A stretch of DNA of 64,000 nt from Vogesella margarita (GTDB taxonomy: Bacteria; Pseudomonadota; Gammaproteobacteria; Burkholderiales; Chromobacteriaceae). Positions 1,245 through 54,722 of the stretch are shown one piece after another. The DNA lies in assembly GCF_028548475.1 (NCBI RefSeq), contig NZ_JAQQLE010000012.1, positions 1 to 64,000 on the forward strand. The letters are read 5' to 3'. The notes under the pieces are model-generated. The model was not told where the DNA came from, did not search any database, and saw nothing but the letters and a program-made list of their open reading frames with translations. The stretch's first letter is position 1. Each line of letters begins with the position of its first letter. The position numbers and the translations under genes are program-made.

Positions 1245-1581
1245 CATCGCCGCTTGCGGCCAACGTTTTCTCGATGCGCCGCGCAAACACCGCCATTTCC
1301 TTCGCGGCCTGCTTGTCGCCGCGCTGCTCGGCCACCGCGATGCCGTCGCGGTAAGCCTGTAGCGCTTGTTGCGGCTCGCCACCGGCCTGCAAGGCCTTGC
1401 CCAGCAATTTCCACGCCGCGGAATAGTCGTGCTGGAAGGCCAGTGCCGCCCTCGCCTCGCGAATCGCCTGTGGCCACTGCTCCAGCCGGGCGTACTCATT
1501 GGCCAGGCCAAAGCGCAACAGTGCGCCGTCACGTGGGCCGTCAATCAGTTTTTGCAAGCGTTGCAGGGCTTCGTCATTCAT
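1237..1581 (-). CDS. Small tetratricopeptide-repeat protein (114 aa)
   Basis: A short cytoplasmic protein made almost wholly of TPR helices. Motif residues are visible in LLRFGLANEYARLEQWPQAI and in AAWKLLGKALQAGGEPQQAL, followed by a third helix pair. It has no signal peptide or enzymatic motif; such single-module TPR proteins act as protein-interaction adaptors, but the partner here is unknown. The ATG start is the complement of 1579-1581, with a GGAG ribosome binding site about 8 bases upstream. Its stop overlaps the end of the convergent vWA pseudogene. The dispersed 13-mer lies inside its 3' end. Confidence 0.75.
   Translation of the reverse strand: MNDEALQRLQKLIDGPRDGALLRFGLANEYARLEQWPQAIREARAALAFQHDYSAAWKLLGKALQAGGEPQQALQAYRDGIAVAEQRGDKQAAKEMAVFARRIEKTLAASGDAS
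1254..1267 (+). repeat. Dispersed 13-mer, TGCGGCCAACGTT form
   Basis: Exact copy in the G variant, within the last codons of the minus-strand TPR gene. See the finding on the uptake-like signal. Confidence 0.85.
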
Positions 1582-1749
1582 GTGGGGGGACTCCGAATAC
1601 GTTCCGCCGGCTATCGCGGCGGCTAGGGTTTCATGTTATAAACTGGCGCCATCGTTGATTGTCGACATTTGCAACATAGACCTATTGCTATGTGCCGGCG
1701 CCTGTCGCTAGACTGACTAAAAGTCATATTATTGAAAGGAAAGCCATTC

Positions 1750-2580
1750 ATGTTGCGTAATTTCCTTTCGTCATGCCAGTCGCGGCGCTGGCCGGTTCTG
1801 TTGCTGGGGGCGCTGCTGGGCTTGCCAACGGCGGTCGATGCGGCGTGCACCCGGTTAGTAGCCTCCGGCAATCCCGAGTATCCTCCCTTTTTGTGGCAAG
1901 ACCCGAACAACGACAGCAAGCTGATCGGTACCAATGCCGAACTGATGCAAATGGTGTCACGCGAGATCGGTATCCCGATTGAAGTGCGCTATGTCGGGCC
2001 GTGGGGCCGGGTGCAGGAAAGTGCACGTAACGGTCGTATCGATCTGATTGCCGGTGCCTTCCTGACGCAGCCGCGGCTGGCCTACCTGCGCTATCTGCAA
2101 CCGGTGATCCGTGATACGCAGACCCTGATCTGGACCCGTCAGCAACACCCGTTGCAATACCAGCGCTGGGAAGACCTGCAGGGGAAGGAAGGCATCACGG
2201 TGGTCAACAACAGTTTTGGCCAGGCTTTCGACCAGTTTGCTGCGGCCAACCTCAAGTTGCAGCAGGTTGGCAGCGTCAAGAATGCACTGCAGATGCTGAG
2301 CCTGGGGCGTGCCGACTACCTGATCTACGAGGATGCGCCGGGTCTGGCCTATGCCTCCAGTCTCAACGTCAAGGGTTTGCGTGCGTCCACGGTGCCGGTC
2401 AGCCGCGAAAAGCTGTACCTGACGATGGCGCTGGCCTCCGCCTGCAATAACGAGCAGCTGGCGGAACGCCTGTCGCGGGCGATGAAAAAACTCAGCGAGG
2501 AGCGGGTGATGGACGCGCTGGTGGAGAAATACCTGCGCGTGTGGCAAGCGCAAAACAGTGCCGCACGCCGGCCTGGCTGA
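1750..2580 (+). CDS. Family 3 extracellular solute-binding protein (amino-acid type)
   Basis: A periplasmic protein of about 276 residues. An N-terminal signal peptide (RRWPVLLLGALLGLPTAVDA, about residues 14-33) is followed by the family 3 solute-binding fold: GNPEYPPFLWQD, LIGTNAELMQMVSREIGI, and the second lobe near ITVVNNSFGQAFDQF. Family members bind amino acids or related compounds for ABC importers. No permease or ATPase gene is adjacent, so it may be an orphan receptor or a sensor-type binding protein. The start at ATG 1750 is chosen because AAAGGA at 1735-1740 lies at proper spacing and the signal peptide follows directly. The gene is closed by the terminator at 2664-2693. Confidence 0.8.
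   Translation: MLRNFLSSCQSRRWPVLLLGALLGLPTAVDAACTRLVASGNPEYPPFLWQDPNNDSKLIGTNAELMQMVSREIGIPIEVRYVGPWGRVQESARNGRIDLIAGAFLTQPRLAYLRYLQPVIRDTQTLIWTRQQHPLQYQRWEDLQGKEGITVVNNSFGQAFDQFAAANLKLQQVGSVKNALQMLSLGRADYLIYEDAPGLAYASSLNVKGLRASTVPVSREKLYLTMALASACNNEQLAERLSRAMKKLSEERVMDALVEKYLRVWQAQNSAARRPG
2242..2252 (+). repeat. Degenerate copy of the dispersed motif
   Basis: GCGGCCAACCT followed by C instead of T, inside the solute-binding protein gene. A near-match that may be decayed or chance. Confidence 0.4.
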
Positions 2581-2623
2581 GAGACGCCGGTAAACGGCAG
2601 GCGTCAGTGTCGAATTGGCGCCG

Positions 2624-2637
2624 TTGCGGCCAACCTT
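2624..2637 (+). repeat. Dispersed 13-mer, TGCGGCCAACCTT form
   Basis: Exact copy in the spacer just downstream of the solute-binding protein gene and upstream of the shared terminator. Confidence 0.85.
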
Positions 2638-2663
2638 TGCGCTCACGTCTCACCCGCTCAAAA

Positions 2664-6466: not shown

Positions 6467-7267
6467 ATGCTTTTCGACATGTGTCACCTGACGGTCTGCC
6501 TGGTGGAGCCTTCGCGGGCGCAAGGACAGATCATCCAGCATCACCTGCAGGAACTGGGTATCGAACGAATCGATCGCGTCGAGAGCGGCGCCGAGGCGCT
6601 GGCACGCATCCACCTGGCGCCCATGCCGGACATCGTGATCAGCGCGATGTACTTGCCGGACATGACCGGCGCCGAGCTGGTGATGGCGATGCGCGGCGAC
6701 GAGCGGGTGCGCGAGATGCCGTTCGTGCTGGTTTCCAGCGAAACGCGGCCGCAGCAGCTGGATGCGATCCGCCAGGCCGGCGCGATGGCGATCCTGCCCA
6801 AGCCGTTTACCCCGGCGCAGCTGGACAAGGCGATCAGCAGTTCGCTCGATTATCTCAATGTCGAAGATACCCGCAGCGAACTGGAGTCGCTGGACCTGTA
6901 CGCGAAGAAGCTCCTGCTGGTCGACGACAGCACCGTGTCGCGCAGCTTCATGCGCAGCGTGCTGGAGCGCTTCGGCTTTTGCGAGATCACCGAGGCCGAC
7001 AACGGCCGCAGCGCAGTCGGCCTGCTGGCGGCCGGCAATTATTTCGATCTGATCATTACCGACTACAACATGCCGGAGATGGACGGCCGCGAGCTGATCG
7101 AGCACATCCGCACCAGCAGCCAGCTGGTTTCGGTGCCCATCCTGATGGTGTCCGGCGAGCAGGACGAGCAAAGGTTGGCCGCAGTCGAAGAAGCTGGCGT
7201 GTCCGCCATTTGTGACAAGCCGTTCGACATCGGCACCCTGAAAAGCCTGATCAGCCAGTTCCTGTAA
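6467..7267 (+). CDS. Tandem-receiver response regulator, first receiver degenerate
   Basis: A 266-residue protein of two CheY-like receiver domains and no output domain. REC1 (about 1-120) lacks the phospho-acceptor: the position after VIS is Ala60 in PDIVISAMYLPDM where an Asp is expected, and the acidic pair is reduced to VEPS. REC2 (about 145-266) is canonical, with LLLVDDST, Asp199 in IITDYNMPEMDG, a Ser/Thr switch in LMVSGE and the Lys in CDKPF. Such proteins relay signals by phosphorylation of one domain, with the other serving in dimerisation or binding. No kinase gene is adjacent. An alternative ATG at 6479 exists; neither start has a strong ribosome binding site. Confidence 0.85.
   Translation: MLFDMCHLTVCLVEPSRAQGQIIQHHLQELGIERIDRVESGAEALARIHLAPMPDIVISAMYLPDMTGAELVMAMRGDERVREMPFVLVSSETRPQQLDAIRQAGAMAILPKPFTPAQLDKAISSSLDYLNVEDTRSELESLDLYAKKLLLVDDSTVSRSFMRSVLERFGFCEITEADNGRSAVGLLAAGNYFDLIITDYNMPEMDGRELIEHIRTSSQLVSVPILMVSGEQDEQRLAAVEEAGVSAICDKPFDIGTLKSLISQFL
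7171..7183 (-). repeat. Dispersed 13-mer inside the response regulator
   Basis: AAGGTTGGCCGCA, the reverse-strand form, read in the gene as QRLAAV near the end of REC2, a poorly conserved stretch. Confidence 0.85.
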
Positions 7268-8315: not shown

Positions 8316-9197
8316 ATGACGACTCTGGGCTTTGTCGGACTGGGGCTAATGGGGGTGCCGATGTGCCGGCGCCTGCTGGCGGCCGGGCATCCGCTGACGG
8401 TATGGAATCGTTCTGCCGCCAAGGCTGACAGCCTGCGCACCGCGGGTGCCCGCGTTGCGGCCAACCTTGGCGAGCTGGCGCGCGGCAGCGACATCGTCAT
8501 GCTGTGCCTGGCCAATGACGAGGCGGTGCAGGCGGTGTGGCAGGCGGAAGACGGCATCCGCGCGCAGCTGCGCCCCGGCCAGCTGCTGGTCGATTTCTCC
8601 AGTACGTCGCCAGCGCTGACCCGGCAACTCGCACAGCAGGCGGCCGAGCGCGGCGCCGCCTGGGTCGATGCACCGGTGTCCGGTGGCGTGCGCGGCGCGG
8701 AAAACGGCACGCTGGTGATCATGGCTGGCGGCGAAGCGCAGGATGTCGCTCGCCTGCAGCCCGTTGCCGCCTGCCTGTCGCAGCGGCTGAGCCATATCGG
8801 TGGCCACGGTGCCGGACAAGTCGCCAAGGTCTGCAACCAGCTGATCGTGGCCAGTAACGCGATGCTGATCGCCGAAACGGTGCAGCTGGCGGAGACGGCC
8901 GGTATCGACGCCAGCCTGTTGCCGGCGGCGCTGGCCGGCGGCTTCGCCGATTCGCTGCCCTTCCAGATCCTGGCGCCGCGCATGGCGCAACGCCAGTTCC
9001 AGCCGCTGCAGTGGAAGGTGGCAACCTTGCTCAAGGACCTTGGCAATGCCCGCCAGCTGGCGGCCGAGCACGGCGCTGCCCTGCCCCTGGCCAGCCTCGC
9101 AGCCGGTTTGATGGCGGCCCATGCCGATGCCGGCTACGCCGAGCAGGACCTGAGCACGGTGATTGCCTGCTATCTGCCCGATGGTGAGAATCGCTGA
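8316..9197 (+). CDS. glxR: Tartronate semialdehyde reductase / beta-hydroxyacid dehydrogenase
   Basis: An NAD(P)-dependent beta-hydroxyacid dehydrogenase of 293 residues. The Rossmann start MTTLGFVGLGLMGVPMCRRL holds the GxGxxG motif. The substrate-binding stretch VDAPVSGGVRGAENGTLVIM and the catalytic Lys region GHGAGQVAKVCNQLIVASN are canonical. It would reduce tartronate semialdehyde to glycerate. The next gene, two bases downstream, is hydroxypyruvate isomerase, which feeds the same pool, so the pair fits glyoxylate/hydroxypyruvate use. 3-hydroxyisobutyrate dehydrogenase is the main alternative. ATG 8316 is chosen for the GGGAG upstream and the family N-terminus. Confidence 0.85.
   Translation: MTTLGFVGLGLMGVPMCRRLLAAGHPLTVWNRSAAKADSLRTAGARVAANLGELARGSDIVMLCLANDEAVQAVWQAEDGIRAQLRPGQLLVDFSSTSPALTRQLAQQAAERGAAWVDAPVSGGVRGAENGTLVIMAGGEAQDVARLQPVAACLSQRLSHIGGHGAGQVAKVCNQLIVASNAMLIAETVQLAETAGIDASLLPAALAGGFADSLPFQILAPRMAQRQFQPLQWKVATLLKDLGNARQLAAEHGAALPLASLAAGLMAAHADAGYAEQDLSTVIACYLPDGENR
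8455..8468 (+). repeat. Dispersed 13-mer inside glxR
   Basis: TTGCGGCCAACCTT, read in frame as VAANL. Confidence 0.85.
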
Positions 9198-9198
9198 G

Positions 9199-9975
9199 AT
9201 GCCGCGTTTTGCCGCCAACCTGTCGCTGCTGTTTACCGAGCTGCCGCTGCCGGCGCGTTTTGCCGCCGCCGCTGCCGCCGGTTTTGACGCGGTCGAAATC
9301 CAGTTTCCCTACGACTATCCGGCGCCGCTGCTGCGTGATGCTGCCGACGCGGCCGCGGTCGACATCATCCTGATCAATCTGCCAGCCGGTGACCTGATGA
9401 CCGGCGGTTACGGCCTGGCCAGTCACCCGGCGCGTACCGAGTCATTCCGTGACGCGCTGGCCGAGGGCGAACACTACGCGCAGGTGCTGGGTGTGCAGAT
9501 GGTCAATGTGCTGGCCGGGCGTTTCGATCCGCAGCAAGACGCGATGCTGACGCGACAGACCCTTGCGGCCAACCTTGCGCTGGCGGGCGAGCGGCTGGCG
9601 GTGCACGGCATTCGCGTCACCTGCGAAGCGATCAACGCCCTGGACATGCCCGGCTTTGTGACAAGCACGCCGGCCGAGTTGGCCGCAGTGCTGGCCGAGG
9701 CGGCGCACCCCAATGTCGGCATGCAGCTGGATCTTTACCACTTGGCGCGAATGCGGCTGGATCTTGCCGCCACGCTGACGCACTACCTGCCACAGACCGG
9801 ACACATCCAGTTTGCCGACTGCCCGGGTCGCCACGAGCCTGGCACCGGCGAGCTGCCGCTGGCGCAAATCTTTGCCTTGCTGGACGAGCTTGGCTATACC
9901 GGATGGTGCGCCGCCGAGTACAAACCGGCTACCAGCACGCCGGATAGCCTGAGTTGGCTGGCTTCCTGGCGCTGA
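9199..9975 (+). CDS. hyi: Hydroxypyruvate isomerase
   Basis: A 258-residue TIM-barrel enzyme of the xylose-isomerase-like family that interconverts hydroxypyruvate and tartronate semialdehyde. Family marks are the opening MPRFAANLSLLFTELPLPAR, the DAVEIQFPYDYPA strand, metal-site residues CEAINALDMPGF and MQLDLYH, and the C-terminal Glu in WCAAEYKP. The start lies one base after the glxR stop, so the two are co-transcribed and probably translationally coupled; the longer in-frame extension overlaps glxR and is not family-like. No terminator directly follows. Confidence 0.92.
   Translation: MPRFAANLSLLFTELPLPARFAAAAAAGFDAVEIQFPYDYPAPLLRDAADAAAVDIILINLPAGDLMTGGYGLASHPARTESFRDALAEGEHYAQVLGVQMVNVLAGRFDPQQDAMLTRQTLAANLALAGERLAVHGIRVTCEAINALDMPGFVTSTPAELAAVLAEAAHPNVGMQLDLYHLARMRLDLAATLTHYLPQTGHIQFADCPGRHEPGTGELPLAQIFALLDELGYTGWCAAEYKPATSTPDSLSWLASWR
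9563..9576 (+). repeat. Dispersed 13-mer inside hyi
   Basis: TTGCGGCCAACCTT, read in frame as LAANL. Confidence 0.85.
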
Positions 9976-10274: not shown

Positions 10275-11600
10275 ATGCATTTCTCCGATCTCGGACTCCC
10301 AGAACCTATCGTTCAAGCACTGACCAAATCCGGCTACGAAAGCCCGACCGACGTCCAGGCTGAAGCCATTCCTGCCGCCCTGCTGGGTAAGGATCTGCTG
10401 GTATCGGCACAAACCGGTAGCGGCAAGACCGCGGCCTTCCTGCTGCCTGCCCTGACCAAGATGGGCGAGCGCTCCAAAGGCTCCGGCAATGGCCCGCGCG
10501 TTCTGGTGCTGACCCCGACCCGCGAACTGGCCTCCCAGGTAGAAAAGAACGCCCAGGTTTACGGCGAACACCTGCGCTGGTTGCGTACCGTGACGCTGGT
10601 CGGCGGCGCCTCCTTCGGCTTCCAGACCCGCGCGCTGTCGCGTCCGGTCGACATCATCGTCGCCACCCCGGGCCGCCTGATGGATCACATGCGCTCCGGC
10701 CGTGTTGACTTCTCCCGCCTGGAAATGCTGATTCTGGACGAAGCCGACCGCATGCTGGACATGGGCTTCATCGAAGACATCGAAACCATCGTTGCCGCCA
10801 CCCCGGCCGAGCGCCAGACCCTGCTGTTCTCCGCCACGCTGGACGGTACCGTTGGCCGCATGGCAGAGAAGATGACCCGCTCGCCACAGCGCATCGAGAT
10901 TGCCCGCAAGGAAGACGGCGGCAGCATCGAAGAACACCTGCTCTACGCCGACGACAATGCCCACAAGGCCCGTCTGCTGGACGCCATCCTGAAAGAATCC
11001 GACTTCGAACAGGCGGTTGTATTCAGCGCCACCAAGATCGGTTCCGAAGAAATCGCCGACAAGCTGTCTGACATGGGCTACTCCGCCGCCTGCCTGCATG
11101 GCGACATGCCGCAGAACTGGCGTAACCGTACCCTGAACGACCTGCGTCGCGGTCGCATCAAGATCCTTGTTGCCACCGATGTGGCCGCCCGCGGTATCGA
11201 CGTGCCGGCCATCGGCCTGGTGGTGAACTACGACCTGCCAAAACAGGCGGAAGACTACGTGCACCGTATCGGTCGTACCGGTCGTGCCGGCCGTAGCGGC
11301 GTGGCGATCACCATCGCCGAATCGCGCGAATTCCACCGCGTGCGCCGTATCGAGCAGTACATCAAGCGCTCGCTGACCGAAGCCGTGATCCCTGGCCTGG
11401 AACCGACCCGTCGTCCGCCAAAAGGCCGTCCGGCTGGTGCCCGCAACAACGGCCCGCGTCGCGGCAATGGCGGCGGCTACGGCGATCGCAAGCCGGGTAG
11501 CGGTGGCGGTTACGCCGGTCGCAGCAGCAGCGGCCCACGCCGCAGCGGCAGTGGCGGCGGCAGCAGCTACAGCGGTAGCCGTGCTCCGCGTGCCGAATAA
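10275..11600 (+). CDS. rhlE: DEAD-box ATP-dependent RNA helicase (RhlE type)
   Basis: A 441-residue RNA helicase acting in ribosome assembly and RNA turnover. The RecA1 domain shows the Q motif (FSDLGLPEPIVQALTKSGY), Walker A AQTGSGKT (residues ~46-53), PTREL, the DEAD box (LDEADRMLDMGF) and SAT. RecA2 shows the ATDVAARGIDV and HRIGRTGRAG motifs. The C-terminal tail (about residue 385 on) is a basic, Gly/Arg/Ser-rich RNA-binding extension, typical of RhlE. ATG 10275 follows AAAGGA at good spacing. It is monocistronic, closed by the terminator at 11610-11642. Confidence 0.93.
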   Translation: MHFSDLGLPEPIVQALTKSGYESPTDVQAEAIPAALLGKDLLVSAQTGSGKTAAFLLPALTKMGERSKGSGNGPRVLVLTPTRELASQVEKNAQVYGEHLRWLRTVTLVGGASFGFQTRALSRPVDIIVATPGRLMDHMRSGRVDFSRLEMLILDEADRMLDMGFIEDIETIVAATPAERQTLLFSATLDGTVGRMAEKMTRSPQRIEIARKEDGGSIEEHLLYADDNAHKARLLDAILKESDFEQAVVFSATKIGSEEIADKLSDMGYSAACLHGDMPQNWRNRTLNDLRRGRIKILVATDVAARGIDVPAIGLVVNYDLPKQAEDYVHRIGRTGRAGRSGVAITIAESREFHRVRRIEQYIKRSLTEAVIPGLEPTRRPPKGRPAGARNNGPRRGNGGGYGDRKPGSGGGYAGRSSSGPRRSGSGGGSSYSGSRAPRAE

Positions 11601-11645: not shown

Positions 11646-11659
11646 TTGCGGCCAACCTT
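11646..11659 (+). repeat. Dispersed 13-mer in the spacer after rhlE
   Basis: TTGCGGCCAACCTT directly behind the terminator between convergent genes. Confidence 0.85.
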
Positions 11660-13928: not shown

Positions 13929-14853
13929 AGCCCAGCCTTTCCAGGGTCACGGCCGCGCCCTGCCCGTTCAGTAGCCGCAAGCCTGGCTCGGCCACGATGC
14001 GGCCAACCTTGGTCACCGCCACGCCGGCCTGTCGCGCCGCCGCCAGTACCGCGTCGGCTCGTGCCGGGCTGGCGGTGAAGCACAGCTCGTAGTCGTCGCC
14101 GCCGGCGGCGATGCAGGACAAAAGCTGTGCGCGGGCGCCGTGCAGCGCCGGATGGGTCGGCAAGGCGTCCAGCCAGACCTCGGCACCACAGGCGGAGCGG
14201 TCGAGAATATGGTGCAGGTCCGCGGCAAAACCGTCGGAAATATCCAGCGCAGCGTGGGCGATGCCGAGCAAGGCGCGGCCGAGTGCCACCCGTGGCTGTG
14301 GCCACTCCAGCTGCCGACGACACTCGGGCGGCAGGGCCAGGTCCAGGCGGCCGAGGCGCTGTTGCAGCGCGGCGGCGGCCAACCCCAGTTCGCCGGATAC
14401 CCAGATGTCGTCGCCGGCCTGCGCCGCATCGCGTCGCAGCGCCTGACCTTGCGGCGTTTCGCCGAAGATGGTCACCGACAGCGTCAGCGGGCCGCGCGTG
14501 GTGTCGCCGCCGATGACGCTGACACCGTGCTGCGCCGCCAGCCCGAAAAAGCCGCGCGCAAAGGCTTCCACCCAGGCGCCGTCCAGTTGCGGCAGCGCCA
14601 GTGCCAGCACCGCCCAGCGCGGCGTGGCGCCCATCGCTGCCATGTCGGACAGGTTGACCGCCAGCGTCTTGTGTCCCAGCGCCTCGGGATCGACATCGGG
14701 GAAGAAGTGGCGCCCGGCCACCAGCATGTCCACCGACACGTGCAGGTCGTGGCCGGGGCTGGGGCGCACGATGGCGGCGTCGTCGCCGACGCCGAGCACG
14801 GCGTTTGGTGTCGCCTGGGTAAAGTGGCGGCGGATCAGTTCGAATTCATTCAT
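13912..14853 (-). CDS. thiL: Thiamine-monophosphate kinase
   Basis: A 313-residue PurM-like enzyme that phosphorylates thiamine monophosphate to the active cofactor. Motifs seen are the N-terminal FELIRRHF, GVGDDAAIV (Mg/ATP site), VSVDMLVAGRHF, KTLAVNLSDMAAMGATP, GGDTTRGP, and the C-terminal ALDISDGFAADL and AGGDDYELCF. The ATG start (complement 14851-14853) matches the family; the longer in-frame extension is not conserved. It lies behind the terminator of nusB, so part of its expression should depend on read-through or a local promoter. pgpA follows with overlap. Confidence 0.93.
   Translation of the reverse strand: MNEFELIRRHFTQATPNAVLGVGDDAAIVRPSPGHDLHVSVDMLVAGRHFFPDVDPEALGHKTLAVNLSDMAAMGATPRWAVLALALPQLDGAWVEAFARGFFGLAAQHGVSVIGGDTTRGPLTLSVTIFGETPQGQALRRDAAQAGDDIWVSGELGLAAAALQQRLGRLDLALPPECRRQLEWPQPRVALGRALLGIAHAALDISDGFAADLHHILDRSACGAEVWLDALPTHPALHGARAQLLSCIAAGGDDYELCFTASPARADAVLAAARQAGVAVTKVGRIVAEPGLRLLNGQGAAVTLERLGYDHFA
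13998..14010 (+). repeat. Dispersed 13-mer inside thiL
   Basis: TGCGGCCAACCTT on the plus strand; on the coding strand it falls in a different codon phase from the LAA/AANL copies, reading TKVGRI. Confidence 0.85.
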
Positions 14854-15906: not shown

Positions 15907-17022
15907 TTAATCCAAATCGACGTGCACGTGTTCAGGTTGGGCAAAGCCGGTGACTTCCAGCCCGAAACCGGTCATCGACGGCAGGTTGATCGGCGAGGCC
16001 ATCAGCTTCATCTTGCCCACGCCCAGCGCGCGCAGCATCTGCGCGCCGATGCCGAAGGTCTTGCTGTCCCAGCGCTGGCGGACGGTATTTTCTACCTGTT
16101 CCGGCAGCGCGCGCGCCAGGATGTCGGCGCCGGATTCCGGGCGGTGCAGCAGGATCACCACGCCGCAGCCCTTCTCCGCGATTTCTTCCAGCGCGTTAGG
16201 GATGGTCCAGCTGTGCTTGCCGCCCATCGGGTCGAGCAGGTCCATCACCGACAGCGGCTCGTGCACGCGCACCAGCGTTTCGGCGTCGGCGGAGGGTTGG
16301 CCGCAAACCAGCGCCAGGTGCGTTGCCTTGGTCAGTACGTCCTGGAACACGTGCAGCTGGAAGGCGCCGAACGGTGTTTCCGCCAGACGTTGGCCGACTT
16401 CCTCGACAAAGCACTCGGTACGGCTGCGGTAGTGGATCAGGTCGGCGATGGTGCCGACCTTGAGGCCGTGTTCCTTGGCAAACTCCAGCAGCTCCGGCAG
16501 GCGCGCCATGGTGCCGTCGTCGTTCATGATCTCGCAGATCACCGACGCCGGTTCCAGCCCGGCCAGGCGCGACAGGTCGCAGCCGGCCTCGGTATGGCCG
16601 GCGCGCACCAGCACGCCGCCCTTTTGCGCCTTCAGCGGGAACACGTGGCCGGGCTGCACGATGTCGGTCGGCCGCGCGTCGCGCGCCACCGCCACCAGCG
16701 TGGTGTGGGCGCGGTCGGCGGCGGAAATGCCGGTGGTGACGCCCTCGGCGGCCTCGATCGACACGGTGAAATTGGTGCCGAAACTGGTGCCGTTGTTGGT
16801 CGCCATCATCGGCAGGTTCAGTTGCTTGCAACGCTCTTCGGTCAGCGTCAGGCAGATCAGGCCACGGCCGAACTTGGCCATGAAATTGATCGCCTCCGGC
16901 GTCACGTGTTCGGCGGCCATAACCAGGTCGCCTTCGTTTTCGCGGTCTTCGGCGTCCATCAGAACCACCATCTTGCCGGCCTTGATGTCGGCGATAATTT
17001 CTTGAACCGGGGAAATGCTCAT
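15907..17022 (-). CDS. ribBA: RibBA: DHBP synthase with a degenerate GTP cyclohydrolase II-like domain
   Basis: A 371-residue fusion. The N-terminal RibB domain (about 1-200) is intact: [39 protein letters not shown], and [19 protein letters not shown]. It makes dihydroxybutanone phosphate from ribulose 5-phosphate. The C-terminal half has the RibA fold, but I do not see the zinc motif with spaced cysteines (a GDxxGSxxCDCG-type stretch) needed for GTP cyclohydrolase II. That half is therefore probably not catalytic, as known for several proteobacterial RibBA proteins. The start MSISPVQEI at complement 17020-17022 has GGGAGAA upstream. A separate ribA would be needed elsewhere. Confidence 0.9.
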
Positions 17023-40160: not shown

Positions 40161-41680
40161 TTATGCCCCCCCATCAACAGGCCCAGTTCGGTGGCCGTGG
40201 CTTGCGCCACCGGCAGCTCGCCGCTGACGCGACCGGCGTTCATCACGATGATGCGGTCGCTCAGCGCCAGAATCTCGTCCAGCTCTACCGAAACCAGCAG
40301 CAGCGCCTTGCCGGCATTGCGCAGGGCCATGAGTCGTTTGTGTATGAATTCGATGGCGCCGATATCGACGCCCCGTGTCGGCTGGCCGATCAGCATTAGC
40401 TGCGGATCGCTGTCGATCTCGCGCGCCAGGATCACCTTCTGCTGGTTGCCACCGGAGAACAGGCCGCTGCGGCGGAAGGCGTTGGCCGGGCGCACATCGA
40501 ACTCGCTGATGAAACGGCGGCAGCGCTCGATGATGGCCTTGCGGTTGAACAACAGGCCGTGCTGGATCGCCGGCTGGTCGTGATAGCCGAGGATCGCGTT
40601 CTCGAAGGTGGAAAAATCCTTGACCAACCCTTCGCGCGAGCGGTCTTCCGGCACATGGGCGATGCCGAGGCGACGATAGGCGGCCGCCTTCGGCTCGCGC
40701 GTTGGCAGCGTGGTCAGCTCGGTGCCGTTGTAGCACACCGAGCCGGCGCTGGCCTCGCGCATGCCGGACAGGATTTCCAGCAGCTCGGACTGGCCGTTGC
40801 CGGAAACGCCAGCGATGCCGACGATCTCGCCCGCGCGCAGCTCGAAGCTGACGTCGTCCAGCAGCTTCACGCCACGCGCGTCGGTCAGAGACAGGCTGCT
40901 CACCTGCAGCACGGTCTTGCCGGGTTTGGCCGGCGTCTTGTCCAGCTGCAGGTTAACCTTGCGGCCAACCATCAGGTCGGCGAGGTCTTCCTTGCCCACG
41001 TCGGCGGTGACGACATTGCCGACGATCTCGCCGGCGCGCATCACGGTGACGGCGTCGGTGATATCCAGCACCTCGCGCAGCTTGTGGGTGATCAGCAGCA
41101 CCGTTTTGCCCTGCGCCTTGAGCAGGCGCAGGATGCGGAACAGGTCGTCCGCCTCCTGCGGCGTCAGCACCGCGGTTGGCTCGTCCAGGATCAGCACGTC
41201 GGCGCCGCGATACAGCGCCTTCAGGATCTCGACGCGCTGCTGCTCGCCCACGCCCAGCTCGCCGACGATGGCGTCCGGATCGACCTGCAGGCCGTAGTCG
41301 CGGTTCAGCGTGGCCAGATGATCACGCGCGGCCAGCAGGCTCTGCTTCAGCGCCACACCCTGCTCGGCACCGAGCACGATGTTTTCCAGCACGGTAAAGG
41401 TGTCCACCAGCATGAAGTGCTGGTGCACCATGCCGATGCCGCGGGCGATGGCGTCGTGGCTGTTGCGGATGCGCACCTCCTGTCCGTTCAGGCGGATGCT
41501 GCCGGAGTCGGCCTGGTAGTAGCCGTACAGGATGCTCATCAGCGTCGACTTGCCTGCCCCGTTTTCGCCGATGATGCCGTGGATGCTGCCCTTGGCGACG
41601 GCGAAGGAGATGTTCTTGTTGGCGTGGACTTCGCCGAAATACTTGTTGACGCCCGTCAGCTCGATAGCGAGTTCGGCCAT
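40157..41680 (-). CDS. Nucleoside ABC transporter ATP-binding protein (double cassette)
   Basis: A 507-residue protein with two ABC cassettes, as in nucleoside and sugar importers. Cassette 1 has Walker A GENGAGKSTL and signature LGVGEQQRVEILKAL with Walker B VLILDEPTAVL. Cassette 2 has a degenerate Walker A (GVSGNGQSEL) and the signature FSGGNQQKV. It energises uptake through the two permeases. Its start lies behind the stem-loop at 41744-41778, which separates it from the highly expressed binding-protein gene. Confidence 0.92.
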   Translation of the reverse strand: MAELAIELTGVNKYFGEVHANKNISFAVAKGSIHGIIGENGAGKSTLMSILYGYYQADSGSIRLNGQEVRIRNSHDAIARGIGMVHQHFMLVDTFTVLENIVLGAEQGVALKQSLLAARDHLATLNRDYGLQVDPDAIVGELGVGEQQRVEILKALYRGADVLILDEPTAVLTPQEADDLFRILRLLKAQGKTVLLITHKLREVLDITDAVTVMRAGEIVGNVVTADVGKEDLADLMVGRKVNLQLDKTPAKPGKTVLQVSSLSLTDARGVKLLDDVSFELRAGEIVGIAGVSGNGQSELLEILSGMREASAGSVCYNGTELTTLPTREPKAAAYRRLGIAHVPEDRSREGLVKDFSTFENAILGYHDQPAIQHGLLFNRKAIIERCRRFISEFDVRPANAFRRSGLFSGGNQQKVILAREIDSDPQLMLIGQPTRGVDIGAIEFIHKRLMALRNAGKALLLVSVELDEILALSDRIIVMNAGRVSGELPVAQATATELGLLMGGHK

Positions 41681-43541: not shown

Positions 43542-45213
43542 GAAAGCGCTCCTGGAAATGTCGCATCAGGCCGCAGGTGGAGGCGTCGTGGGCGGCAGAG
43601 GCCTTGCCATCCATCTCCGCCAGCAGCTGTGCGGCCAACTGTTTGCCGTACTCCACGCCCCACTGGTCGAAGGAGTTGACCCCCCAGATCACGCCCTGCA
43701 CGAACACCTTGTGCTCGTACAGCGCCAGCAGCATGCCTAGTGTATAGGGCGTCAGCCGGTCGAGGGCCAGGGTGTTGGACGGTTGGTTGCCGGGGAACAG
43801 CTTCTGCGGCAGCAGCATGTCCAGCTCGTCGCCCGGCAGGTGGGCAAGCTCGCGCAGCACCTCGGCCTCGCTCTTGCCGCGCATCAGCGCCTCGGTCTGT
43901 GCCAGGCAATTGGCGACCAGCACGCGATGCTGGTCGCCCTGCGGGTAGTGCGTGTTCAGCGGCAGGATGAAGTCGCAGGGCACCAGGCGCGTGCCCTGGT
44001 GCAAGAGCTGGAAGAAGGCATGCTGGCTGTTGACGCCCTCCTCGCCCCAGATCACCGGGCCGGTGTCGAAATCCAGCCGCTCGCCGCAACGCCCGACGCG
44101 CTTGCCGTTGGACTCCATGTCCAGCTGCTGCAGGTGCGCCGGCAGCCGGCGCAGGCCGTGGTCGTAGGGCATGATGGCGTGGGTGTGCGCACCATAGAAG
44201 GTGTTGTACCAGATGCCGAGCAGCGCCAGGAGTACCGGCATGTTGCGCGCGAAAGGCGCACTGAAGAAGTGTTCGTCCATCGCCGCGCCGCCGGCCAGGA
44301 ACTGGCGGAACTGCTCCGGCCCGATCGCCAGCATCACCGGCAGCCCGATCGCCGACCACACCGAGTAGCGGCCGCCGACCCAGTCCCAGAAGCCAAACAT
44401 GTTGGCCACATCGATGCCGAAAGCCTGTACCGCCGGACGATTTGTCGAGATCGCGACGAAGTGCCGCGCCACCGCCGCGTCGCCGGCGGCCGCCACCAGC
44501 CAGCGACGGGCGGCGTGGGCGTTGAGCAGCGTTTCCGGGGTGGTGAACGACTTGGAGGCGACGATGAACAGCGTGGTCGCCGGCTGGCACTGTTCCAGCG
44601 TTTGTGCCAGATGCTGGCCGTCGACATTGGACACGAAGTGGACATTCAGCCCCGGCTTGCAGTACGGACGCAGCGCCTCGTGCACCATCAGCGGCCCCAG
44701 GTCGGAGCCGCCGATGCCGATATTGACCACGTCACGGATGGCTTGGCCGTCATGACCGCGCCAGTCGCCGCCGCGCACCGCTTCTGCAAAGCGGCTGCAC
44801 GCAGCCAGCACGTCCTGCACCTCGTCCACCACGTTGACACCGTCCAGCAGCACGCGGCTGCCGGCCGGCTGGCGCAGCGCGGTGTGCAGCACCGCACGCT
44901 GTTCGCTGACATTGATGCGTTCGCCATCGCGCATCCACTGCAGCCACTGCCCAAGGTTGGCCGCATCGGCCAGTTCCAGCAGCAGTTCAAGGGTGCGGTC
45001 GGTGATGCGGTTCTTGGAGTAGTCCAAGAGCAGGCCGTCCAGCTCCAGCGAATAGCGGTCAAAGCGCTGCGGGTCCTGCTCGAACAGCTCGCGCATGTGC
45101 ACGTGGCGGGTGGCGCGCTGGTGCTGGTGCAGGCGCGCCCACACCGGCGTGCTGTTGATCGCGGCGTGGCGCTGGCGCGCCATCTGCTCGAGGAAACTGC
45201 TCATCCCGGGCAT
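43534..45213 (-). CDS. pgi: Glucose-6-phosphate isomerase
   Basis: A 559-residue (or 556 from the second ATG) isomerase linking glucose 6-phosphate and fructose 6-phosphate. Signatures are VNIGIGGSDLGPLMV, FIVASKSFTTPETLLNA, FGFWDWVGGRYSVWSAIGLP and GVNSFDQWGVEYGKQLA. It joins the fructose PTS genes here in central sugar flow. Two start codons lie nine bases apart; AAGG is close to the first and a bit far from the second, so the exact start is unsure. It directly follows orn, with a 4-base gap. Confidence 0.96.
   Translation of the reverse strand: MPGMSSFLEQMARQRHAAINSTPVWARLHQHQRATRHVHMRELFEQDPQRFDRYSLELDGLLLDYSKNRITDRTLELLLELADAANLGQWLQWMRDGERINVSEQRAVLHTALRQPAGSRVLLDGVNVVDEVQDVLAACSRFAEAVRGGDWRGHDGQAIRDVVNIGIGGSDLGPLMVHEALRPYCKPGLNVHFVSNVDGQHLAQTLEQCQPATTLFIVASKSFTTPETLLNAHAARRWLVAAAGDAAVARHFVAISTNRPAVQAFGIDVANMFGFWDWVGGRYSVWSAIGLPVMLAIGPEQFRQFLAGGAAMDEHFFSAPFARNMPVLLALLGIWYNTFYGAHTHAIMPYDHGLRRLPAHLQQLDMESNGKRVGRCGERLDFDTGPVIWGEEGVNSQHAFFQLLHQGTRLVPCDFILPLNTHYPQGDQHRVLVANCLAQTEALMRGKSEAEVLRELAHLPGDELDMLLPQKLFPGNQPSNTLALDRLTPYTLGMLLALYEHKVFVQGVIWGVNSFDQWGVEYGKQLAAQLLAEMDGKASAAHDASTCGLMRHFQERFHG
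44952..44965 (-). repeat. Dispersed 13-mer inside pgi
   Basis: CAAGGTTGGCCGCA; on the coding strand it reads DAANLG. Confidence 0.85.
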
Positions 45214-45217: not shown

Positions 45218-45763
45218 TTACACTTTGAGGAAGTGTTCGCGGTAATAGCGCAGCTCCTCGATCGATTCGAGGATGTCCGCCAGCGCCTCGTGCTTGCCCT
45301 TCTTCACCACGCCCTTGGCGATGTCCGGGCGCCAGCGCTTGCACAGCTCCTTCAGCGTGGACACGTCGAGGTTGCGGTAGTGGAAGTAGCGCTCCAGCTC
45401 CGGCATCCAGCGCGCCATGAAGCGGCGATCCTGGCCGATGGAGTTGCCGCACATCGGCGACACGCCCTTGGCGATGTGCTCCTGCAGGAAGGCCAGCAGC
45501 TGCTGTTCGGCCTCAGCCTCGCTCAGCGTCGAGGCCTTGACGCGAGCGGTGAGCCCGGTCTTGCCGTGGGTATTGGTGTTCCACTCGTCCATTGCGGCCA
45601 ACGTTTCGTCGCTCTGGTGCACGACCAGCACTGGCGACTCGGCGACCACGTTCAGTTCGCTGTCGGTGACCACCATCGCGATTTCGATGATGCGGTCGGT
45701 GTCCGGTTCCAGCCCGGTCATTTCCATGTCCAGCCAGATGAGATGCTTGGGATCTTGCGGCAT
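45218..45763 (-). CDS. orn: Oligoribonuclease
   Basis: A 181-residue DEDDh 3'-5' exoribonuclease that degrades dinucleotides, including pGpG from c-di-GMP breakdown. Exo I is [13 protein letters not shown], Exo II includes [12 protein letters not shown], and Exo III has [15 protein letters not shown] with the conserved His/Asp later. It complements the diguanylate cyclase at 11.7-13.4 kb by clearing its breakdown product. The M48 protease gene is divergent. Confidence 0.95.
45592..45605 (+). repeat. Dispersed 13-mer inside orn
   Basis: TTGCGGCCAACGTT; on the coding strand it reads ETLAAM. Confidence 0.85.
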
Positions 45764-47399: not shown

Positions 47400-48262
47400 A
47401 GCAGCAAGGTCAGATCATCCGCAGTTACGGCCGCCGCTTCATCGTCGAATGTGACGGCCGCCAGTACGATTGCACCACCCGCGGCAAGCGCGTCGACTAC
47501 GCCTGCGGCGACCACGTCGAGCTGTCGGTCATCAACGGCGAACAAGCGGTGATCGAGCAGGCCTGCGAGCGCAAGAGCCTGCTCTACCGCCAGGATGACT
47601 GGCGCACCAAGCTGATTGCGGCCAACGTGACGCGCATCGTGTTCGTCACTGCCGCCGTCCCCACGCCCAGCGAAGAGCTGCTCAACCGCTGCCTGCTGGC
47701 CGCCGAGGCCGCCGACATCGAGCCCATCATCCTTGTCAACAAGTGCGACCTGCCGGAAACCGCCGACTGGCTGGCCAAGCTGCAGCCCTACCGCGAACTG
47801 GGCTACACCCTGGTCACGGTCAGCGCCCTGCACGACATCAACGAGCTGCTGCCGCTGGTCAAGGGCCAGACCTCGGTTTTTGTCGGACAGTCCGGCATGG
47901 GCAAGTCGACGCTGACCAATGCGTTGCTGCCTGCCGCCGAGGCGCGCGTCGGCGATATTTCCATCGCACTGGACGCCGGCCGCCACACCACCACCCACGC
48001 CGCGCTCTACCATCTGGACGACGACAGCCACCTGATCGATTCGCCCGGCTTGCAGGAGTTTGGCCTCAGCCACCTTGCCGCCACCGAGCTGGCCGGCCTG
48101 TTCCCGGAAATGCGTCCCTATATCGGCCACTGCCGCTTTCACAATTGCACCCACCGCGCCGAGCCCAATTGCGCGATCAAGGGCGCCTGCGATGAAGGCC
48201 GCATCCGCCCGGCCCGGCTGGCCTTATTGCAGAAGCTGACTAATCAGCTTGTTAATGCCTAA
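47396..48262 (+). CDS. rsgA: Ribosome small-subunit GTPase RsgA
   Basis: A 288-residue circularly permuted GTPase that checks 30S maturation. The OB fold (1-75) is followed by the permuted G domain: G4 NKCDLPET comes before G1 GQSGMGKSTLTN and G3 DSPGLQEF. The C-terminal zinc finger is CRFHNCTHRAEPNCAI. It ends the M48-phhB-rsgA transcript. Confidence 0.95.
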   Translation: MKQQGQIIRSYGRRFIVECDGRQYDCTTRGKRVDYACGDHVELSVINGEQAVIEQACERKSLLYRQDDWRTKLIAANVTRIVFVTAAVPTPSEELLNRCLLAAEAADIEPIILVNKCDLPETADWLAKLQPYRELGYTLVTVSALHDINELLPLVKGQTSVFVGQSGMGKSTLTNALLPAAEARVGDISIALDAGRHTTTHAALYHLDDDSHLIDSPGLQEFGLSHLAATELAGLFPEMRPYIGHCRFHNCTHRAEPNCAIKGACDEGRIRPARLALLQKLTNQLVNA

Positions 48263-49138: not shown

Positions 49139-49151
49139 CAAGGTTGGCCGC
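49139..49151 (-). repeat. Dispersed 13-mer between phaB and its terminator
   Basis: AAGGTTGGCCGCA form (from 49140) in the 3' untranslated region. Confidence 0.85.
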
Positions 49152-49159
49152 ACGCAAAA

Positions 49160-49727: not shown

Positions 49728-50754
49728 CCTGTTCCGCCAGCTGCGCCGCCGGCATCGCCCCCAGCTGCGCCTGCTCGGCCTGCAGCCACAACAGCAGGTG
49801 CGGCAGGCGATGCTGCAGCAGTAGCGCCTGCTCCTGCTGCAGCTGCTGCAGGGTTGCACCTTGCTGCTGCGCCGTCGCTGCCAGCTCGGCGTGACGTTGC
49901 TGCCACTGCTGCCGTGCCGCCTCGCTTTCCGTCAGCCGTTCCTGCAGCGCCGCCAGCTCTGCGGCCAACCTGCCATTCTCCTGCGCGCGTTGCGCCAGCT
50001 GCTGCTGGCTGTTGTCGCGCAGCACTGCCAGCTGCTGCGCCTGCTGTTGCCGTTCTGCCTGCCACTGCTGTTCGCGCTGACGCAGCAGCGTGCGCTCGTC
50101 CTCCACCTGCTGGTACAGCTGGAGTCGCACACCTTCCAGTCGCTCGTAGGCCAGCGCCTCGCGCCGCTCGCCATCCTGCTGCAATTGCTGCAATTGCTCT
50201 GCATGACGTGCTTCCAGCGCCTCGACGCGCTGGTCGGCGGCCTGCTGGGTGGCGACGATCTGGCTGCGCGCCTCCTGCAATGCCGCTTCGCTGGCGAGGG
50301 CACGTGCCTCCTGTACCGCCAGCGCCTGCTGCAACTGCGTCAGGCTGGCGGCCAGCTGCTGCCGCGCCTGCTCGGCGTTGTCGCAGCGCCGGCTTAACAC
50401 CTGTTGCTGCTCGATGGCGGTAACCAGTTCGCGCTGTGCCTGGGCCAGCTCGGAAACCAGTCGCGCCACCTCCTGTTGCGCCTCTTCGCGCAAGCCGGCC
50501 AGATTCTGCTCCGCCTCGCCGCAGGCCTGCTGCCAGATCTGGGCAAAGGCCTGCGCCAACGCTGGAGACCAGTCCGGGTGGCGGGCACTGGTCGCCATCT
50601 TGCCGAGGAATTCCTGACGCCACTGGCGTAGGGTATTGTTGATGGTGGTGTTGGAGCCGGTGCCCAGCCGCGTGCGCACCTCCTGCACCGTCGGCCACAC
50701 GCCGGCGCCAACCAGTTCCAGCGCCACGTCGCGCACTCGTGTATGAATATCCAT
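49705..50754 (-). CDS. KfrA-like DNA-binding coiled-coil protein, second copy
   Basis: A 349-residue protein with the same plan as the one at 35.7 kb: an N-terminal KfrA-type DNA-binding module (VRDVALELVGAGVWPTVQEV, GTGSNTTINNTLRQWRQEF, about 1-60) and then a very long Gln/Ala/Glu/Leu-rich coiled coil up to the C-terminus. The two differ enough in sequence to be old paralogues. The start MDIHTRVRDVA at complement 50752-50754 is family-like. It overlaps msrC convergently and is upstream, divergently, of moaA. Role unknown; nucleoid or segregation functions are possible. Confidence 0.83.
   Translation of the reverse strand: MDIHTRVRDVALELVGAGVWPTVQEVRTRLGTGSNTTINNTLRQWRQEFLGKMATSARHPDWSPALAQAFAQIWQQACGEAEQNLAGLREEAQQEVARLVSELAQAQRELVTAIEQQQVLSRRCDNAEQARQQLAASLTQLQQALAVQEARALASEAALQEARSQIVATQQAADQRVEALEARHAEQLQQLQQDGERREALAYERLEGVRLQLYQQVEDERTLLRQREQQWQAERQQQAQQLAVLRDNSQQQLAQRAQENGRLAAELAALQERLTESEAARQQWQQRHAELAATAQQQGATLQQLQQEQALLLQHRLPHLLLWLQAEQAQLGAMPAAQLAEQVRRLLAG
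49961..49971 (+). repeat. Degenerate copy of the dispersed motif
   Basis: GCGGCCAACCT followed by G, inside the second kfrA-like gene. Confidence 0.35.
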
Positions 50755-52871: not shown

Positions 52872-52925
52872 CCGGTAATACATTGCGGCCAACCTTGTGC
52901 AAGGTTGGCCACAATGTATTACCGG
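52872..52925. repeat. Long inverted repeat made of a pair of the dispersed motif
   Basis: Two 26-base arms around a TG centre, identical as complements except one G/A change. Each arm is CCGGTAATACATTG-like flank plus the motif (52883-52897 exact; 52900-52914 with GGCCAC for GGCCGC). It lies just past the stop of mobA on the minus strand, where a terminator is expected. Confidence 0.88.
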
Positions 52926-52936
52926 AGCGTGCAAGA

Positions 52937-53524
52937 TTACTGGCCAAGGCTCGCCAGCGACTGTGGATCGTTGAGATTGCTGAAGGCGCGGGTGTCGTCG
53001 AAATTGACGATGCGGCAATCCAGCAGCGCGAGAAAACCGCGCAGGCTGCGGCCGCCGCCGGCAAGATAGTCCGGCAGTCGCGCCAGCGCGCTGCGGCGCA
53101 GCAGCGCACACACCGGCTGCGGGCCGTTGATGGTGTAGGGACAGCAGGCGTCGGCGCGACGCTCCGCCTGCAGAACGGCCAGTTGACGCGCCACCAGATC
53201 GGCCGGCAGCAAAGGCGCGTCGCACGGCACCAGCTGCACGTAGTCGATGCCGTCCGGCAGCTTGTCCGCCAGGGTGGCGACCCCAGCCAGCGGCCCCATG
53301 CCCTGCCAGGCCGCCTCGTCGGCGAATACGGCGTGGCCGCTGACGGCGTAGTCGTCCAGATGGCGGTTGGCGCTGATCGCCAGCCAGCCGGCCTGCGGCG
53401 CCAGCCGTGTCAGCACGTGGCGGTATAAAGGTTGGCCGCACCACGGCAGCAAGCCCTTGTCCTGTCCGCCCATGCGCCGACCTTCACCCCCGGCCAGCAG
53501 CAGCACTGCCACCTGTTCAGTCAT
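52937..53524 (-). CDS. mobA: Molybdenum cofactor guanylyltransferase
   Basis: A 195-residue nucleotidyltransferase that makes the MGD form of the cofactor. The GTP site is VLLLAGGEGRRMGGQDKGLL; the family phrases YVQLVPCDAPLLPADLV and GGRSLRGFLALLD follow. The start MTEQVAVLL at complement 53522-53524 is family-like; it overlaps moaE by 8 bases. It is the last gene of the minus-strand run mobB-moaD-moaE-mobA, ending at the large inverted repeat. Confidence 0.94.
   Translation of the reverse strand: MTEQVAVLLLAGGEGRRMGGQDKGLLPWCGQPLYRHVLTRLAPQAGWLAISANRHLDDYAVSGHAVFADEAAWQGMGPLAGVATLADKLPDGIDYVQLVPCDAPLLPADLVARQLAVLQAERRADACCPYTINGPQPVCALLRRSALARLPDYLAGGGRSLRGFLALLDCRIVNFDDTRAFSNLNDPQSLASLGQ
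53428..53440 (-). repeat. Dispersed 13-mer inside mobA
   Basis: AAGGTTGGCCGCA; on the coding strand it is read in a third phase, as CGQPLY within an otherwise conserved region. Confidence 0.85.
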
Positions 53525-53978
53525 GCCAGCGCCCGCATGCCGCGTCGTCGCTGGCCTTGGCTTCGACCCAGCGGCTGCTGCCGTCGACAAAATCCTCGCG
53601 CTTCCAGAACGGCGCCTGCGTCTTCAGGTAGTCCATCAGGTATTCGGCGGCGGCAAAGGCGCCAGCGCGGTGGCCGGCGGCGATGAGCACCAGCACGATG
53701 GGCTCGCCCGGCGCCAGCGCCCCGACGCGATGGATGACGCGACAGGCGCTCACTGGCCAACGCGCGGCGGCCTGCTCGGCGATGCGGCGGATTTCGGCCT
53801 CGGTCACGCCGGGATAGTGTTCGAGAAACAGCGCCGCGAGCGGCACGGCTTCGTCGTGGGCGCGCACCATGCCCTGGAAGGCCACCAGCGCCCCGGCGTC
53901 GCCGGCTTGCGCGCGCAGCGCCAGCTCTTCGGCGCCAAGGTCGAAGGTGGCGGTTTGTACGGTGATGTCGCAGTACAT
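53517..53978 (-). CDS. moaE: Molybdopterin synthase catalytic subunit
   Basis: A 153-residue large subunit of molybdopterin synthase, which with MoaD inserts two sulfurs into cPMP. Signatures are ALVAFQGMVRAHDE, LFLEHYPGVTEAEI, RVIHRVGALAPGEPIVLV and the catalytic Lys in KTQAPFWKREDF. It lies one base downstream of moaD and overlaps mobA. Confidence 0.95.
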   Translation of the reverse strand: MYCDITVQTATFDLGAEELALRAQAGDAGALVAFQGMVRAHDEAVPLAALFLEHYPGVTEAEIRRIAEQAAARWPVSACRVIHRVGALAPGEPIVLVLIAAGHRAGAFAAAEYLMDYLKTQAPFWKREDFVDGSSRWVEAKASDDAACGRWHD

Positions 53979-53979
53979 G

Positions 53980-54231
53980 TCAGCCCCCGGTCACGGGCGG
54001 CAGGATGCCGACTTCGGCACCCTCCGGGATCGCCGCGTCGCCGCGCACGATCTGCTGGTTGACCACCAGGCGGAACACCTTGCCCGGTGCCAGCGCCAGC
54101 GCCCAGTCCTCGCCGCGGCCGCGCAGCAGGTCTAGCAAGGTGGCGGTGGTGCCGCCGTCCCAGGCCAGCGTTTCCGTGCTGCAGCCCAGCGTGTCCTTGA
54201 GAACACCAAAATACAGTAGCGTGATGCTCAT
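53980..54231 (-). CDS. moaD: Molybdopterin synthase sulfur-carrier subunit
   Basis: An 83-residue ubiquitin-like protein. It begins [17 protein letters not shown] and ends in the diagnostic ILPPVTGG, whose final Gly is thiocarboxylated and delivers sulfur to MoaE. The ATG at complement 54229-54231 overlaps the mobB stop (ATGA), so mobB and moaD are translationally coupled; the much longer in-frame reading upstream belongs to no gene. Confidence 0.94.
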
Positions 54232-54722
54232 GCAGAATCCTTCAGCCAGTTGGCAATAAAATCGGCAATCGCGGCGTGGTCGTCCAGCGGCAATTGCGGC
54301 AAATCGGTTTCGGTGGCGCAGTCGCTGGCCAGCGCGATCACGAACGGGTCGTCCGGGTACAGCCACGGCTTGGCGCAGGCACTTCGGTGCACCTCGATGC
54401 GCGGCACCGGCAGCGTTTTCTGGCCTTCCAGCAGCACGAGGTCGACTGCGGCCAACCTTGACAGCTGCTGTTCTAGCGTCAGCGGCTGCGGCGTCTCGGC
54501 AAACAGGCCGAAGCGGTAGGGCGACACCACCATCACCTCGTGCGCGCCGCTGGCGCGGTGGCGCTGGCTGTCCTTGCCGGCCACGTCCAGCTCGATGTCG
54601 TGATGGCTGTGCTTGATCACCGACACCGTCAGTCCGCGCGCGGCCAGCAGCGGCAACATCGCGCCGATCAGCGTGGTTTTGCCACTGCCGGACCAGCCGG
54701 CAATGCCCAGCACTTTTTGCAT
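54228..54722 (-). CDS. mobB: Molybdopterin-guanine dinucleotide biosynthesis adaptor MobB
   Basis: A 164-residue GTP-binding P-loop protein that assists MobA. Walker A is [12 protein letters not shown]; other family phrases are [15 protein letters not shown] and [19 protein letters not shown]. It is first in the minus-strand run mobB-moaD-moaE-mobA and divergent from moaC, with about 68 bases between them for promoters. Confidence 0.94.
54447..54459 (+). repeat. Dispersed 13-mer inside mobB (last exact copy in the window)
   Basis: TGCGGCCAACCTT; on the coding strand it reads SRLAAV. Confidence 0.85.

Follow-up and report, generated by a model that had tools for sequence, protein, structure and literature searches.

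A dispersed word with clade-specific dialects in Vogesella and part of the Chromobacteriaceae: a candidate DNA uptake sequence and its candidate ComP-type receptor

The DNA analysed here is a stretch of 64,000 nucleotides (64 kb; the window) from Vogesella margarita, positions 1 to 64,000 of contig NZ_JAQQLE010000012.1 in assembly GCF_028548475.1, and the element in question is a dispersed 13-mer, TGCGGCCAACSTT, which is a candidate DNA uptake sequence (DUS). A motif search of the window found 27 exact copies, 15 on the plus strand and 12 on the minus strand, and 11 copies with one mismatch. A preliminary description of this DNA had reported twenty-four exact copies on both strands and several with one mismatch. 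All twenty-four are real, each lying within 1 base of the position given for it; the three that went uncounted are overlapping minus-strand halves of palindromes.

Single exact copies on the plus strand lie at 1255-1267 (TGCGGCCAACGTT, within the called gene 1237-1581), 2625-2637 (TGCGGCCAACCTT), 8456-8468, 9564-9576, 11647-11659, 13998-14010, 24687-24699, 29651-29663, 45593-45605 and 54447-54459, the last being the final exact copy, with 9.5 kb to the window end without another. Those on the minus strand are at 7171-7183, 17823-17835, 19272-19284, 37249-37261, 39576-39588, 44953-44965, 49140-49152 and 53428-53440. The remaining exact copies are paired. Three 20-bp palindromes, TGCGGCCAACGTTGGCCGCA, each consist of two overlapping exact copies: 17113-17132 (17113-17125 plus, 17120-17132 minus) and 35656-35675 (35656-35668 plus, 35663-35675 minus), both between called genes, and 31818-31837 (31818-31830 plus, 31825-31837 minus) within the called gene 31132-32499. 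An inverted exact pair at 21083-21112 (21083-21095 plus, 21100-21112 minus) stands between converging called genes and is followed by a T run, a terminator-like arrangement, and another inverted pair, at 52884-52913, joins an exact copy (52884-52896, plus) to a one-mismatch copy (52901-52913, minus). The other one-mismatch copies were found at 2241-2253, 23904-23916, 26449-26461, 34472-34484, 40960-40972, 47617-47629 and 49960-49972 on the plus strand and at 10848-10860, 16293-16305 and 30502-30514 on the minus strand. An Rfam scan of the window gave no match at the gathering threshold, so a known RNA element was rejected, and a tRNA search of the window found none. At 58414-63139 the window carries a phage-type integrase gene and then GmtZ of a gamma-mobile-trio element, in DNA of lower GC content that holds no exact copy of the word.

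The word had been described as far above chance, and this was borne out. Exact and one-mismatch copies together number 38 in the window, against a mean of 0.32 and a largest value of 2 in 100 dinucleotide shuffles. Near-chance counts outside the window had been named as a finding that would speak against an uptake signal; the whole genome (3,329,447 bases, 3.33 Mb, in 26 contigs) holds 1,356 exact copies, 696 on one strand and 660 on the other, while the reversed word used as a control occurs 0 times on either strand. The shuffles and the reversed controls rule out chance or base composition as the origin of this abundance. Read on the other strand, the 13-mer is AGGTTGGCCG-CA, and the 12-mer in DUS orientation is AGGTTGGCCGCA; DUS numbering is used for its positions.

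The count was extended to related genera, as the preliminary description had proposed. Among the matches listed, the named relatives that rank highest for one window protein are strain TC5R-5, Pseudogulbenkiania, Paludibacterium (two), Aquitalea and Craterilacuibacter, at 71-74% identity. The window is accordingly assigned to the Chromobacteriaceae or their near kin; TC5R-5, Paludibacterium and Craterilacuibacter correspond to genera g7, g8 and g9 of the family, with matches at identical places. In a set of 61 genomes, made up of the V. margarita genome and 60 relatives, exact copies of TGCGGCCAACSTT number 473-1,372 in all 12 congeners, 0-11 in 24 family members of other genera and 0-2 in 24 genomes of other families. 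In a sample of 300 genomes from the order, AGGTTGGCCGMA has 0-8 copies in each of 291 genomes from other families, and in the nine of the family (f1) it has 420-1,095 copies in five and 2-9 in four motif-less ones.

The word has sister dialects in part of the Chromobacteriaceae. Three clade-specific dialects, ending in CA, AA or AG, were found, and 23 of 61 genomes of the family carry one of them. In G016, G021 and G022, from three other genera, GTTGGCCGAA stands in place of the CA word. The AA dialect, AGGTTGGCCGAA, reaches 384-610 copies in each of G013, G014, G016, G017, G021 and G022, 144 in G023 and 68 in the 84%-complete G029, with 0-22 in the remaining 53 of the 61. The AG word, GTTGGCCGAG, was present 92 times in a sampled stretch of G024, where 2.9 were expected; counted over whole genomes, the two g4 members have 1,940 and 1,590 copies and all others 13-165. 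CCG at +6 to +8 is common to all three dialects, and A at +10 is present in the CA and AA dialects and not in AG. None of the three was found in 19 g7, 6 g8, 4 g9 and nine of ten g6 genomes. No other word of comparable strength appeared in the g6 and g7 stretches sampled; in motif-less genera the sampled DNA amounted to 160 kb from a single g6 genome, 140 and 60 kb from two of g7, and 40 kb from a single genome in each of g8 and g9. The dialects follow phylogeny: on a tree of 31 ComP proteins the four labels CA, AA, AG and none need 4 changes, compared with a shuffled mean of 15.3, a comparison in which near-copies favour clustering. Two side observations concern other words. In motif-less genera, at L233-L239 (G087) and at L168-L169 and L240-L245 (G030), CAGGTTCAG, CAGCGTCAG and CAGGCCCAG are weakly over-represented, which may reflect codon usage or a weak signal of another kind. 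A repeat of 48 copies in G015 (L166 and L167), containing for example CTGAGCTGCCTA and CACTGCCGGATA, resembles a type I-F CRISPR (clustered regularly interspaced short palindromic repeats) array, and similar words occur in G087.

The setting of the copies and the anatomy of the word were analysed in a sample of 464 kb of the V. margarita genome (14%, GC content 64.2%), to which the counts of copies, pairs and single-base variants in this and the next two paragraphs refer unless the window is named. It holds 182 copies: 99 coding, 74 intergenic and 9 at gene edges, where intergenic bases make up 13-19% by the gene calls. Genes were called by a codon-usage script that missed genes in low-GC stretches, so that the intergenic class is somewhat overcounted. 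Copies thus sit in genes and spacers, as had been stated, and within genes 47 run with the gene and 52 against it; the two orientations and the spacer copies rule out a peptide repeat. The further claim that copies within genes occupy different codon phases holds in that more than one register is used, in both orientations, but it was overstated, since use is uneven: by the same gene calls one register accounts for 69 of the 99 coding copies and, in the window, for 13 of 15. The three 10-kb bins of low GC content hold 5 copies and the 43 others 177, a weak argument for absence of the word from genomic islands, and it is weakened further by one motif-poor low-GC gap that contains a flagellin gene and not evident foreign DNA. 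The word could also be explained as the target of a cytoplasmic protein that binds DNA all along the chromosome (Chi-like, KOPS-like, after the FtsK-orienting polar sequences, or nucleoid-organising) unrelated to uptake. Recombination, segregation and nucleoid sites are likewise short, abundant and conserved, and the mean spacing of the copies, 2.4-2.9 kb with close pairs set aside, would suit such a role. However, Chi and KOPS are skewed strongly to one replication strand, and with strands assigned by GC skew of 20-kb bins 96 copies fall on the G-rich strand and 86 on the other, without strong bias; polar replication sites were rejected on this ground. The near-even orientation relative to genes, the invariably inverted arrangement of close pairs, and the switch of dialect between genera with absence from others, which is known behaviour of DUS, also argue against a site of this kind, which we consider improbable.

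The close pairs bear on a second explanation, that the copies are remnants of a family of small mobile repeats or terminators resembling repetitive extragenic palindromic sequences (REP) or miniature inverted-repeat transposable elements (MITE). Pairs less than 60 bases apart number 25 and all are inverted; 17 are wholly intergenic, many just behind genes, 5 are wholly within a called gene, and 9 have a T run (right) or A run (left) of at least 4 within 12 nt, as remnants of such a family might. Against this, 132 of the 182 copies lie outside close pairs and more than half are within called genes. REP and MITE repeats are, moreover, conserved well beyond a core word, whereas outside the 13-mer a single neighbouring base stands out here, a G in 25 of 44 core matches, with nothing beyond it. 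In the absence of conserved flanks a mobile repeat was rejected, and this origin seems to us still less likely than the preceding one.

The word itself is sharply bounded. The 12-mer AGGTTGGCCGCA occurs 149 times where 0.43 copies are expected, and in a substitution scan positions +1 to +9 (GTTGGCCGC) were nearly absolute, single-base variants having 0-3 copies. Variants at +7 have 0-1 copies each, and T at +7 has 0. At -1 the base is G in 149 copies or C in 69; at -2 it is A in 149, against G in 24, and at +10 it is A, with G in 11 copies. Least probable of all is a methylation or restriction-modification site over-represented through its modification system, since the word does contain the palindrome GGCC but nine positions, nearly all required, are long for such a recognition site and the CA, AA and AG dialects follow clades (no methyltransferase search was made).

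Conservation of the word at the DNA level was assessed in a 60-kb alignment of four species at 92-95% identity, in which sites were found in one species and divergence was measured among the remaining three. The motif columns show 95 differences in 3,432 (2.8%), the flanks 12.0% and random GC-matched 13-mers 6.5%. The flanks are more variable than average because many copies lie in spacers, and the random 13-mers are therefore the fairer yardstick. The core 9-mer diverges by 3.1% and eight control 9-mers by 5.4-9.0%. All four species have an exact copy at 13 of the 27 gap-free sites (gapped sites, 10 in number, were excluded), and where a species is without the copy it mostly differs by a single base (16 of 21). 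Retention of an exact copy in another species was seen in 230 of 277 cases (83%), compared with 66-75% for four common 9-mers. A per-site sign test against the flank, with 28 of 37 sites scored, gave 20 lower and 8 higher, a modest result (p 0.036). Such conservation of the DNA is in keeping with an uptake sequence, and the earlier view that selection acts on DNA and not on a peptide agrees with the two orientations in genes and the spacer copies. At about 51 kb of the window the alignment of two of the relatives (G004 and G005) stops and that of a third (G011) picks up further on, so an insertion or deletion separates the species there.

A receptor was looked for among the type IV pilins, the preliminary description having proposed a search for ComP-type minor pilins, and an orthologue candidate was found by Pfam family, PDB sequence and fold. 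The family ComP_DUS (PF16732) matches three places in the V. margarita genome, two of them over the cut-off, and its profile also exceeds the cut-off in other pilins and in motif-less genomes. The best score, 71.4 bits, belongs to a pilin on contig C10. Judged from its neighbour genes, this is PilE in a cluster of fimU/pilW type, and it was passed over, as were the pilins at L193, L194 and L198. The candidate ComP is encoded at 11036-11470 of contig C1 (48.9 bits, cut-off 27.3). When its soluble part was compared with all PDB sequences, only 2NBA, 2M3K and 5HZ7, all of them Neisseria ComP, were found at E up to 1; the full-length protein matched 22 sequences at E up to 10, with 2NBA best and others including pilins through the shared N-terminal helix. 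A stretch common to the candidate and 2NBA reads ENA.F.E.FY...GS.K.T.T.WP.LP. An AlphaFold model (pLDDT 87.5, pTM 0.75, 14 sequences) was searched with Foldseek against 350,542 chains, and ranks 1-3 were ComP, with E values of 2.6e-5, 1.1e-3 and 1.2e-2.

The candidate comP gene lies near aroB, aroK and pilQ. Directly upstream of it, and overlapping it by 7 bases (L121:10503-11470), is a GspH/FimT-like pilin gene (GspH 21.2 bits, cut-off 21); by reading of the gene neighbourhood the two are also adjacent in G003, and in a g5 genome the comP orthologue directly follows a PilY1-like gene. FimT-type pilins bind DNA in other bacteria, and the arrangement suggests that the FimT/GspH-like pilin and ComP form a two-pilin unit. 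PilQ, ComEA and ComEC are encoded in the V. margarita genome. Among the 13 genomes of the genus ComEA is over the cut-off in all and ComEC was found in 11. ComEA and ComEC are well known from many non-competent bacteria, and they therefore permit competence and do not prove it. In the ComP tree the proteins of CA-dialect genomes form a single group (100/99), whereas those of AA and of motif-less genomes do not. The ComP of G017, which alone in g6 carries the motif, is placed with those of two motif-less g6 genomes (96/93), on long branches that make this placement uncertain. Such a pattern fits vertical inheritance and loss of the motif. In one motif-less g8 genome the comP homologue (G094:C1:465057-465458) has an in-frame TGA and is perhaps a decaying receptor gene. 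Among the ComP rows (L199-L232) a loop, N-[T/V/A]-D, is present in 22 of 23 from motif-bearing genomes, G021 being the exception, and in 0 of the 8 rows read from the 38 motif-less genomes; it was not counted as evidence because the pattern was picked after the rows had been seen and was counted by eye, and because g7 rows have a similar N-[V/I/L]-[D/E].

With a probability that we put at about 0.85, AGGTTGGCCGCA would be a DNA uptake sequence read by a ComP-type pilin. The earlier statement that the word behaves like a DUS is supported, as far as sequence features go, by the abundance, the conservation, the dialects, the inverted pairs and the ComP orthologue. At the cell surface the type IV minor pilin ComP, perhaps jointly with the FimT/GspH-like pilin encoded just upstream, would preferentially bind DNA fragments that carry AGGTTGGCCGCA, and these would enter through the PilQ secretin, drawn inward by ComEA and ComEC. 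Recombination of the imported DNA into the chromosome would let the word accumulate genome-wide, and a clade's own dialect (CA, AA or AG) would favour uptake from close kin. The inverted pairs behind genes may double as terminators. What is observed is the abundance, the word boundaries, the dialects, the conservation, and the genes for ComP, PilQ, ComEA and ComEC; ComP binding, preferential uptake and competence itself we infer.

Several findings weigh against this reading of the word. The Foldseek TM-scores are moderate, 0.43-0.56 by query. Across 14 aligned ComPs only C131 and C140 are invariant, the V. margarita protein having no other cysteines, and the proteins end 2-4 residues past the last cysteine; with one cysteine pair and so short a C-terminal end, the reading of DNA must differ in detail from that of Neisseria ComP. 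As to the electropositive stripe of ComP, counts of charged residues make the soluble part near neutral in the V. margarita protein (13 K+R, 13 D+E) and -3 to +5 in the 14 aligned. Homologues of comP are also encoded in motif-less g6 and g7, by a profile built partly from motif-bearing genera, so the co-occurrence of motif and comP is imperfect. ComEC was not found in G002 and G008 and is split in G004. Finally, the core is CCG, where the DUS of the Neisseriaceae have CTG at +6 to +8. Even so, the word is in our view a genuine uptake-sequence candidate. It is present in all genomes of the genus, its dialects extend to part of the family, and a candidate ComP-type receptor accompanies it.

On the history of the system our judgement is evenly balanced: DUS-guided transformation may predate the split of Neisseriaceae and Chromobacteriaceae, the ancestral pair of ComP and DUS having diverged in parallel to give a CCG branch with CA, AA and AG dialects that was lost in several Chromobacteriaceae genera which kept a relative of comP. 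If this is true, CTG would be a lineage trait of the Neisseriaceae, and the ComP and FimT-like pilin pair of the genus would be a second solution for reading an uptake word. If the words in these 23 genomes are another uptake set, the CTG core on which Neisseria depends would prove not to be universal, and this in a family of which five genomes had been reported as without obvious DUS (PMC3630211). The set also supplies matched pairs of receptor and dialect with natural contrasts, such as G017 and its nine motif-less genus mates, and how ComP reads DNA becomes testable by swapping pilins and dialects. One environmental Vogesella isolate, V. indigofera OSW_575, is reported to be amenable to genetics by conjugation (PMC12826045).

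To our knowledge few sequence-guided uptake systems are known, the DUS and the uptake signal sequence (USS) of the Pasteurellaceae. The USS is likewise an abundant self-recognition word for uptake, but of different sequence and in another bacterial class. Its receptor was predicted in 2025 to be a different minor pilin (PMC12616744). That no uptake signal with this sequence had been described, as was claimed, agrees with the literature at the level of titles and abstract openings: searches with the string TGCGGCCAAC and four related strings gave no uptake report by title among the papers listed, and the motif was not reported in those listed on Vogesella, Chromobacteriaceae, Chromobacterium, Neisseriales and other genera with uptake, supplements such as Table S1D of PMC3630211 being outside their reach.

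The closest likeness is to the DUS of the Neisseriaceae, also 10-12-mers in very many copies with clade-specific dialects and an encoded ComP-type pilin. Neisseria DUS, like this word, occur on both strands, in genes and spacers and as inverted pairs. The family is a different one, the sister family Chromobacteriaceae, and GCCGTCTGAA has 0 copies in the window. Three Neisseria loci of 17-22 kb, taken as a control, each contain 27-36 Neisseria-type words, and the 64-kb window contains 18 of the same degenerate pattern. According to Frye et al. (2013, PMC3630211), all eight Neisseriaceae dialects have CTG at +6 to +8 and A at +10, the dialect differs between genera of one family, and no obvious DUS is reported for Laribacter hongkongensis, Lutiella nitroferrum, Pseudogulbenkiania sp. 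NH8B and two Chromobacterium. The earlier claim of a different core therefore stands as to CCG and CTG, but the AA dialect AGGTTGGCCGAA agrees with AG-simDUS, AGGCTGCCTGAA, in 9 of 12 positions and shares its ends (AGG...GAA), and the difference may mean diverged and not unrelated. This likeness is only suggestive, as 1.05% of base permutations do as well, a figure that does not correct for having three dialects to choose from; for the CA and AG dialects the best agreement with a DUS is 8 of 12 positions and falls short of significance (7.6% and 6.1% of permutations). The candidate receptor resembles Neisseria ComP (5HZ7, 2NBA, 2M3K) in sequence, Pfam family and predicted fold. It differs in having one conserved cysteine pair in place of two disulfides, one of which holds the DD-region, in being without the C-terminal tail, and in its near-neutral soluble part. 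The word is thus not a Neisseriaceae DUS as defined by CTG, and it is DUS-like in copy number, in its dialects and in the presence of a ComP-type receptor gene.

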